This document shows positions 23,199-60,339 of a stretch of DNA of 64,000 nucleotides, piece after piece; the first letter of the stretch is position 1, and each line of letters opens with the position of its first letter. The position numbers were made by a program, and so were the translations under genes. The notes beneath the pieces are model-generated. The model was not told the origin of the DNA. It saw nothing but the letters and a program-made list of their open reading frames with translations, and ran no database searches. Origin of the DNA: Aphanothece sacrum FPU1 (lineage in GTDB: Bacteria; Cyanobacteriota; Cyanobacteriia; Cyanobacteriales; Microcystaceae); contig NZ_BDQK01000014.1 of assembly GCF_003864295.1 (NCBI RefSeq), forward strand, positions 1-64,000. The letters run 5' to 3'.

Positions 23199-23201
23199 TT
23201 T

Positions 23202-23224
23202 GAGGAAGTTATCCTCATTTTTTT
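23202..23224 (+). terminator. Terminator of atpB-atpE
   Basis: GAGGA (23202-23206) and TCCTC (23212-23216) form a short stem with a five-base loop, followed by a run of seven T at 23218-23224, three bases after the atpE stop codon. A second hairpin, AAGGGTAG at 23254-23261 with CTACCCTT at 23274-23281, lies just beyond and may back it up. Confidence 0.6.
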
Positions 23225-23295
23225 GATGTTTCTAGACAATTCTTTCTTATTATAAGGGTAGGGAATTACCTCTCTACCCTTAATTTATGTTTGTT

Positions 23296-23394
23296 CTAGT
23301 AGGAGTCAACGGCCGTTGACCCCCACATCATCCCCATCTGTAGTCAGATTTTGAAGCATTGGATTAATTCATAAATAAGCTGTTACGCATCTAA
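23296..23394 (+). repeat. 99-bp direct repeat, copy 1 (partner at 27566-27664)
   Basis: This stretch and 27566-27664 differ at only three of 99 positions. Each begins with a palindrome built on GTAGGAGTCAACGG and its complement, and each ends in the TAAGCTGTTACGCATCTAA arm of the foldback family. The copies lie downstream of atpE and of the PEP-CTERM gene, 4.3 kb apart. Confidence 0.9.
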
Positions 23395-23503
23395 ATTAGT
23401 CCTATTCGAGTGGTGGGGTGATGGGGTGATGGGGTGGTGGGGTGATGGTTTGATAGTTTGTTTCCTAATCTGCCAATATACAGTTTAAATGCGTCTTAGC
23501 TTA
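23376..23503. repeat. MITE-like foldback repeat, TAAGCTG family, copy A
   Basis: The left end TAAGCTGTTACGCATCTAAA and the reverse complement of the right end (TAAGCTAAGACGCATTTAAA) agree at about 17 of 22 positions, giving a 128-base element with terminal inverted repeats and no coding capacity. The interior contains a simple GGGGTGATG repeat. It shares interior sequence with copy C at 24484-24595 (CTAAATTAGTCCTATTCGA and TTTCCTAATCTGCCAATATA). Confidence 0.75.
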
Positions 23504-23577: not shown

Positions 23578-23917
23578 TACCATGCTTTCTTCTACATTAA
23601 AAAATAGACTATCTACTCCTTTAAATATTCGCAATTAACATTAAGAGTAAATTTGTCGGTGTCGAGTCATCAATTAAGTTAACTATTGTTAACTTGATCA
23701 AAACTTAAGCACCAGCAATAACAGTAGGGTCAATTCATGAATTGACCCTGCTAAAGCTCTCAATTAGAACGATAGGATCTTCGAGCGTGAGTAATTATAA
23801 CTACCTATTCCTAAAAATACCCAGATTTTATTTTATTACTAAATTTAATTTTCCGTAATTTCCAGTAGGACTCTTGAAGTGAATAATGACCGTATTATTA
23901 CTAGGGTGAAACCCCCA

Positions 23918-27565: not shown

Positions 27566-27664
27566 CTAGTAGGAGTCAACGGCCGTTGACTCCTACTTCA
27601 TCCCCATCTGTAGTCAGATTTTGAAGCATTGGATTAATTCATAAATAAGCTGTTACGCATCTAA
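27566..27664 (+). repeat. 99-bp direct repeat, copy 2, with perfect 28-bp palindrome
   Basis: This is the partner of 23296-23394. Here bases 27569-27596 form an exact 28-base palindrome, whose left half is GTAGGAGTCAACGG. Two of the three differences between copies lie in the palindrome arm, where copy 1 has lost pairing. The rest of the gap, 27665-28036, is very AT-rich and shows no gene, promoter or repeat I can support. Confidence 0.9.
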
Positions 27665-35289: not shown

Positions 35290-35475
35290 GGTTCTACCGG
35301 ACTTACTATGTTAAACTAATAATTAATAAAAGGCCAAAGCCTTATCCTATAGAAACAAAGTCCGACGAGCGCGGACAGCCATTCTAGGTTGGGTAGGCAA
35401 CCTTTGTTTGGTAGGAGTCAACGGCCGTTTACCCCTACGATGAACGAGTTAAAACCTATTATTTGTGATAATTTA
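35290..35475 (+). repeat. Four-hairpin foldback element, copy 1 (with inserted palindrome)
   Basis: The element starts GGTTCTACCGGAC and contains in order AAGGC..GCC..., GTCCGACGAGCGCGGAC and AGGTTG..GGCAACCT. Where other copies have the fourth hairpin arm TTAACTC, this one has the GTAGGAGTCAACGG palindrome (35411-35438) followed by the surviving arm GAGTTAAAACC and the right end TATTATTTGTGATAATTTA. One repeat family has therefore inserted into another. An AATTCAT/AATTTAT heptamer tract (about 35490-35557) follows. Confidence 0.8.
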
Positions 35476-35562
35476 GGCTTGCTATAAGACAAATTATAAT
35501 TTATAATTCATAATTCATAATTCATAATTTATAATTTATAATTCATAATTCATAATTCAGCT

Positions 35563-60274: not shown

Positions 60275-60339
60275 GTAGGGGCTGGTTTTTAACAAAATTT
60301 GAAGATTCTAACAAATATGTTAGATAAACCCGCCCCTAC
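60275..60339. repeat. Inverted repeat GTAGGGGCTGGTTT with inner hairpin
   Basis: GTAGGGGCTGGTTT (60275-60288) and AAACCCGCCCCTAC (60326-60339) pair at 13 of 14 positions, and CTAACA/TGTTAG (60308-60323) forms an inner stem. Single arms of the same sequence occur at 3285-3298 and 50911-50924. The gap 59945-60388 otherwise holds no gene I can support. Confidence 0.7.

Follow-up and report, generated by a model that had tools for sequence, protein, structure and literature searches.

The 28-bp palindrome at 27569-27596 of the window, the 64,000-nucleotide stretch of Aphanothece sacrum FPU1 DNA analysed here, is probably a dispersed, non-autonomous double-foot REP that would be moved by a RAYT. 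It is best read as a small mobile repeat of a type already described and not as a signal particular to this locus. Since the repeat begins with GTAG and ends with CTAC, either strand would fold into a 12-bp hairpin with a GTAG foot. A RAYT would bind the single-stranded hairpin with this foot, cut nearby and join it elsewhere. Copies would be retained at sites of little harm, chiefly intergenic ones, and would decay afterwards. The features of the window are as follows.

27569-27596, no strand assigned: perfect 28-bp palindrome (probable double-foot REP), 46 bp 3′ of the stop codon of an NHL-repeat gene
23299-23326, no strand assigned: copy of the palindrome with 2 differences, 100 bp 3′ of the stop codon of the ATP synthase epsilon gene
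35411-35438, no strand assigned: copy of the palindrome with 2 differences, in MITE A, with divergent cutA and ABC-permease genes on either side
35290-35480 (approximate), no strand assigned: MITE A copy that carries the palindrome, right end truncated, GGTTCTACCGGA end at 35290, several hairpins
27566-27664, + strand: 99-bp duplicated segment, made up of the palindrome, the ‘C’ flank and 19 bp from the start of repeat D
23296-23394, + strand: counterpart of the 99-bp segment, which differs from 27566-27664 in three places
23327-23366 (borders approximate), + strand: ‘C’ flank, 40 bp, with the same flank at 27597-27636; resembles one arm of the Crocosphaera element E
23376-23503 (end approximate), + strand: repeat D, which ends in TAAGCTGTTACGCATCTAAATTAG ... 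GTTTAAATGCGTCTTAGCTTA and contains a GATGGGGT minisatellite
23724-23751, no strand assigned: second 28-bp GTAG-type palindrome with a different core (GTAGGGTCAATTCATGAATTGACCCTGC)
23201-23217, + strand: terminator-like hairpin and T run just 3′ of the epsilon gene and upstream of the palindrome, from a consensus scan alone
23253-23282: second terminator-like hairpin, upstream of the 23299 palindrome, from the consensus scan

Within the window, the palindrome was matched three times at ≤3 mismatches (0, 2 and 2), compared to no match in 100 dinucleotide shuffles. This bears out the original prediction, which had described a perfect copy at 27569-27596 and an imperfect one at 23299-23326, both inside a 99-bp repeat with three differences. 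Alignment of the two segments confirmed this repeat; two of the differences lie within the palindrome and one just 3′ of it. The third copy, at 35411-35438, had been placed inside a hairpin element and is indeed located in the multi-hairpin repeat MITE A. The window copy GTAGGAGTC..GACTCCTAC is a variant of the genome-wide consensus GTAGGGGTC..GACCCCTAC. The NHL-repeat gene upstream of 27569 is the one that had been labelled PEP-CTERM. By a Pfam match (ATP-synt_DE), the gene upstream of 23299 codes for the epsilon chain of ATP synthase, usually named atpC in bacteria and atpE in chloroplasts. Repeat D runs on beyond 23376 but breaks off in the copy at 27566-27664 after its first 19 bp (27646-27664), so that the 99-bp repeat is duplicated repeat debris and not an element of its own. 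It would be a later local duplication, in which the palindrome was carried along with adjoining repeat debris. The C flank matches one E arm with a score of 27, where the 99% background is 23. More copies or parts of repeat D were seen at three other loci (L077, L081 and L106). In an Rfam search at gathering thresholds, a single tRNA was the only match in the window.

A genome-wide search, as suggested with the original prediction, gave 118 copies of the palindrome (≤3 mismatches) in the 4.49-Mb genome (20 contigs), with the consensus GTAGGGGTCAACGGCCGTTGACCCCTAC, so that the family is not limited to the window. The reversed but not complemented control gave 0 matches at the same threshold in the same genome. 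A random spread inside genes, which had been named as a reason to give up the prediction, was not found either, as 66 of 67 copies with gene context are intergenic, whereas 82% of random positions are genic. These 67 copies come from unbiased stretches and from copies listed by the search, so perfect ones are over-represented; gene context was assigned by our own ORF calls (≥80 codons). The intergenic copies lie between genes in the same direction in 31 cases, between convergent genes in 24 and between divergent genes in 11. Random intergenic places show approximately 53, 18 and 29%, respectively, and convergent pairs are thus in excess among the copies.

Perfect copies make up 34 of 85 places found at ≤9 mismatches. 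The changes in these 85 copies comprise 105 one-sided and 8 paired ones (shuffled mean 1.3, maximum 6), and all 8 paired changes are confined to four copies. These counts indicate that single copies change without restoration of the pair, while subfamilies differ by paired changes. When four core positions were left free, complementary letters were counted by eye in 82 of 84 places among the matches listed. The heptamer GTAGGGG occurs 111 times on both strands of 464 kb, compared to 20 expected, and is most commonly followed by CGGGT (28) and TCAAC (13; palindromes are counted on both strands). In the same 464 kb, GTAGGG and CCCTAC form 20 pairs within 260 bp and 4 in the reversed order; spacings of 28 bp (7 pairs) and 64-65 bp (5 pairs) were observed among the 20. 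At 60275-60339, the window also contains a 65-bp sequence of the GTAGGGG..CCCCTAC class, whose long arms enclose an AT-rich loop. Half-sites (GTAGGGGTCAAC, one mismatch) outside palindromes number 10 in 648 kb; five of them lie ≤50 bp from a palindrome and look like slippage duplicates. No insertion sequence ending in GTAGGGGTCAAC half-sites was seen in these 648 kb.

According to Quentin et al. (2018, PMC6006769), double-foot REPs, which carry GT[AG]G 5′ and C[TC]AC 3′ of a hairpin, go with TnpA_REP proteins (RAYTs) of subclass 2.4. They find this subclass, marked by NH[IFV]H, WQ and YIxNNP, to be abundant among Cyanobacteria and Bacteroidetes, and REPs can also stand in frame within its gene. 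For the canonical long REPs of the subclass, they state that the stem has three G-C pairs in a row at its base. The palindrome has GTAG 5′ and CTAC 3′, and its consensus has the three pairs (GTAG-GGG / CCC-CTAC), which the perfect window copy (GTAG-GAG / CTC-CTAC) shows in part. It also resembles these REPs in its long hairpin, in its many dispersed and mainly intergenic copies and in its occurrence in Cyanobacteria, and a sister variant lies inside two RAYT genes (see below). Unlike them, the exact palindrome was not found at any RAYT gene among the Y1_Tnp loci of this genome, 80 listed loci around exact copies and 13 homologue loci, and it also occurs in unrelated MITE-like repeats. For other groups, PMC8266576 reports that TnpA_REP cuts single-stranded REPs at CT, and once also at CA, and that GTAG is essential or important for cutting, depending on the group. 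By analogy, these cutting rules may hold for the palindrome as well.

The likely candidate enzyme in this genome would be the product of the RAYT-like gene G000:C4:37928-38413, whose flanking repeats have the GTAGGGG end in common with the palindrome. The protein scores 66 bits against NF047646 (cut-off 80), and the other 12 matches are weaker. Judged by the motifs alone (NHLH, WQ and YILNNP), it is close but not exact to subclass 2.4. The gene is bracketed by a GTAGGGG repeat of the CGGGT type and not by the palindrome, the nearest copy of which is found approximately 1.1 kb away, inside a MITE A copy. IS200/IS605 TnpA was also considered as a direct partner and was rejected, since no palindrome (≤7 mismatches) was present within flanks of up to 1.5 kb at any of the 15 Y1_Tnp matches of this genome; at six of these loci, the search was extended to other hairpins. 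Comparison of 23 RAYT/IS200 proteins with the 80 loci listed around exact copies gave no match.

A sister palindrome with two paired differences, GTAGGGGCGAACGGCCGTTCGCCCCTAC, was observed at 2 of 13 loci with genes similar to the RAYT-like gene. In Pleurocapsa MO_192.B19 (L385), it lies 24 bp 5′ of the RAYT gene, occurs again in frame inside the gene with one change, and is followed by a degenerate copy 3′. In Planktothricoides SR001 (L392), it is located in frame within the RAYT gene. The motifs of the two proteins are NHFH, WQ and YIVNNP for Pleurocapsa and NHFH, WQ and YVQNNH for Planktothricoides, and both genomes contain the exact palindrome too. At the other 11 loci, we found GTAGGGGCGGGTTT-type repeats in three cases, another double-foot palindrome in one and, by the criteria used, none in seven. 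A different double-foot palindrome, GTAGAGACGTTGC..GCAACGTCTCTAC, was seen both beside and in frame inside another RAYT gene (L393, genome G007). A point against our reading is that the genomes of the genus Crocosphaera, which hold many copies of the palindrome, match the RAYT-like protein only weakly (E 2e-8 to 2e-6), though RAYTs of another type are present in them. Our reading would tie a common cyanobacterial palindrome to the system of double-foot REPs and subclass 2.4 RAYTs. With one RAYT-like gene and 118 near-identical copies, this genome might also serve as a simple test case for the movement of REPs by RAYTs in cyanobacteria.

Other described repeats are similar to the palindrome in part. 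The GTAG-REP superfamily, in particular the families GTAG-12, -15 and -16, is described by Di Nocera et al. (2013, PMC3733652) as having a GTAG end and a length of 20-40 bp, as intergenic and mainly behind genes, and as present in Cyanothece and Anabaena strains. In this superfamily, however, GTAG is an unpaired terminal tag, whereas the GTAG of the palindrome is paired with CTAC in the 12-bp stem. The palindrome could still be identical to GTAG-15 or -16. REPINs and BIMEs, as presented by Bertels and Rainey (2011, PMC3116915), are likewise RAYT-linked miniature mobile DNA and are also reported for Nostoc punctiforme. A REPIN is a REP doublet, whereas the palindrome is a single 28-bp unit; such a form could arise from an inverted REP dimer by central deletion, as noted by Quentin et al. 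(PMC6006769). The small dispersed repeats of Nostoc, reportedly described by Elhai et al. in 2008, are likewise very small mobile repeats of cyanobacteria.

The palindrome is spread widely but unevenly among cyanobacteria. A strict pattern matched in 10 of 58 genomes, A. sacrum itself included. Among 291 genomes from 122 genera of the order, a sample of a larger group, 50 genomes in 28 genera had matches to a generalised pattern. Exact copies were found at at least 80 loci, in Crocosphaera watsonii WH 8501, Cyanothece sp. BG0011 and several Crocosphaera MAGs, as well as in Oscillatoria sp. SIO1A7, Planktothricoides sp. SR001, Pleurocapsa, Zarconia, Roseofilum and others. The genomes of the genus Crocosphaera (G017, G024, G029 and G033) contain 19 to 104 copies each. 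Genomes of the same family are often without the palindrome while distant ones have it, which points to gain and loss or to horizontal spread. In Planktothricoides SR001, five exact palindromes stand in tandem with a spacing of approximately 107 bp (L244, 6151-6608). Two contigs of a Bacteroidota bin (Crocinitomicaceae MAG ALOHA_ZT_7; L276 and L279) carry the palindrome with E arms of the Crocosphaera type and are probably Crocosphaera contamination of that bin. The palindrome was not met in searches of the running text of papers, either by topic or by exact letters, including 10- and 12-mers, where there was no cyanobacterial title among the matches listed; it may nonetheless have a name in print.

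The suggestion that the palindrome is a mobile unit, made with the original prediction, gains ground by inference, as the copies are dispersed, intergenic, high in number and patchy among genomes, have the double-foot form and are present in a minority of MITE A copies. Read from this distribution and form, the palindrome appears to be mobile. The empty-site comparison proposed at the same time gave no clean case, which counts against this reading; the 58 relatives included no second genome of the genus. In Cyanothece BG0011, the rsgA region differs from that of relatives by more than the palindromes and was rejected as an empty site, and a second test region was rearranged. A 2-bp target duplication was also discarded. 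It was seen at 12 of 40 copies (shuffled mean 4.7, beyond 2000 shuffles) but was not repeated in further sets, with 0 of 11 new copies and 4 of 33 copies from other genomes (mean 3.2). Uma2 genes account for 6 of 129 ORFs adjoining palindromes, and the 25 families listed for 130 control ORFs do not include Uma2. We claim no enrichment, given that 112 Uma2 (PF05685) matches are present in the genome. In Cyanothece BG0011 (G024), two palindromes enclose a gene that is Uma2-like by our reading and by its match to a Uma2 place of the A. sacrum genome. Several of the 112 matches in this 4.49-Mb genome are in tandem, and one tandem pair is split by a palindrome.

The palindrome occurs both alone and within longer repeats. 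Among the 78 copies read in this genome, a flank in common with another copy was found for 29 and E arms for 2 others, which leaves 47 with neither. The shared flanks belong to MITE A, to repeat B (TAGCACTAC ends), to the C flank and to a few pairs. MITE A is a repeat of approximately 190 bp that ends in GGTTCTACCGGA and contains several hairpins, in the stems of which both arms vary together, e.g. AAGGCTTTAGCCTT versus CAGACATAAGGTCTG. It has at least 41 matches genome-wide (L113-L142), with 40 of 259 first-look candidates scored. Only 3 of 21 MITE A copies in 464 kb carry the palindrome, which there substitutes for GTTAAGCTATA or more (at least 11 bases) and is not a simple addition, a point against the double-foot REP reading; at least three left junctions were seen. 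A single origin of the palindrome inside MITE A was not favoured by a tree of 60 MITE A copies, 11 of which carry the palindrome, as the label changes 8 times. The shuffled mean is 10.2, and 15 of 500 shuffles are as low, so that clustering is weak in this short alignment. Several gains or exchanges in MITE A seem likely. In Crocosphaera, the palindrome is the centre of an inverted repeat of approximately 105 bp, element E, with TAATACCAATTTC-like ends. Oscillatoria and Planktothricoides have shared flanks that differ again from A, B and E. The unit shared among copies in unrelated flanks is 28 bp long. The identical palindrome inside several unrelated MITE-like repeats of different genera is the least ordinary point of our data. 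As a tentative extension, the double-foot REP might be an exchangeable hairpin module that travels alone and on carriers as the inner hairpin of unrelated MITE-like families, namely A and B here, E in Crocosphaera and others in Oscillatoria and Planktothricoides. The hairpin would perhaps be replaced or added at TAG/TAC micro-matches, a detail that we put forward equally tentatively.

Alternatively, the palindrome could be merely the centre of larger MITE-like elements moved by a DDE enzyme (A, B, E and others), with solo copies as eroded MITEs. The flanks in common and the inverted repeat of Crocosphaera fit with this, as do the E arms in the scan loci, where 17 of 136 copies have both arms and 16 one arm. 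The remaining 103 have none, however, and carriers differ between and within genera while the common part stays the same 28 bp. A longer element hidden around solo copies was not supported, as the 47 copies with neither kind of flank also lack extended symmetry (the 95% null is exceeded by 3 of them, compared to 2.4 expected). A transposase with the ends of a palindrome carrier was not seen in the loci examined. We consider this origin unlikely.

A functional 3′-end element, i.e. a bidirectional terminator or an mRNA-stabilising hairpin selected behind genes, seems quite unlikely to explain the family. The perfect copy does fold into a strong RNA hairpin (−19.1 kcal/mol, z −6.9), convergent gene pairs are in excess, and 30 of 78 copies are flanked by T-rich sequence on one or both sides, compared to 18.5% of random intergenic places. 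In addition, REPs are said in PMC3733652 to terminate transcription or to stabilise mRNA in other bacteria. On the other hand, the T-rich flanks are not oriented to the gene: among 79 gene ends, the far side is T-rich in 16 cases and the near side in 18, so that a downstream preference is absent and the terminator reading of these flanks was rejected. The two imperfect window copies fold weakly (−9.7 and −7.9), one-sided changes far outnumber paired ones, and presence among relatives is patchy. Eleven of the 66 intergenic copies, and the 35411 copy of the window, lie between divergent genes. Two terminator-like hairpins are already present between atpC and the 23299 copy. The scan that detected them gave 15 matches in the window versus 10.4 in shuffles, and none of the window palindromes is included in its list. 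The proposal that the palindrome marks transcript ends is thus left weak. The position relative to gene ends, which had been suggested as a check, supports it through the convergent pairs and T-rich flanks but not through the divergent copies, the orientation of the flanks or the one-sided changes. Overall, a terminator role is weakly supported for the family, whereas single copies may have one. Repeats of this type can be mistaken for terminators or regulatory sites.

It is very improbable that the palindrome is a protein-binding site or part of a promoter that was multiplied for that function. Its perfect dyad symmetry and very even sequence would suit such a site, and its arms hold TTGAC(T/C), which was scored as −35-like at 27579 and 23309 in a promoter scan (49 matches versus 38.2 in shuffles). 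Against this, no preference for places upstream of genes was observed, as only 11 of 66 copies lie between divergent genes, and the near identity of the copies, their one-sided changes and their patchy presence suggest spread rather than a degenerate motif. The double-foot REP remains our preferred reading. At both 27579 and 23309, the −35-like element is on the − strand and is followed at 16 bp by TAAAAT/TAAATT in the promoter scan, and the palindrome could therefore be part of an outward promoter.
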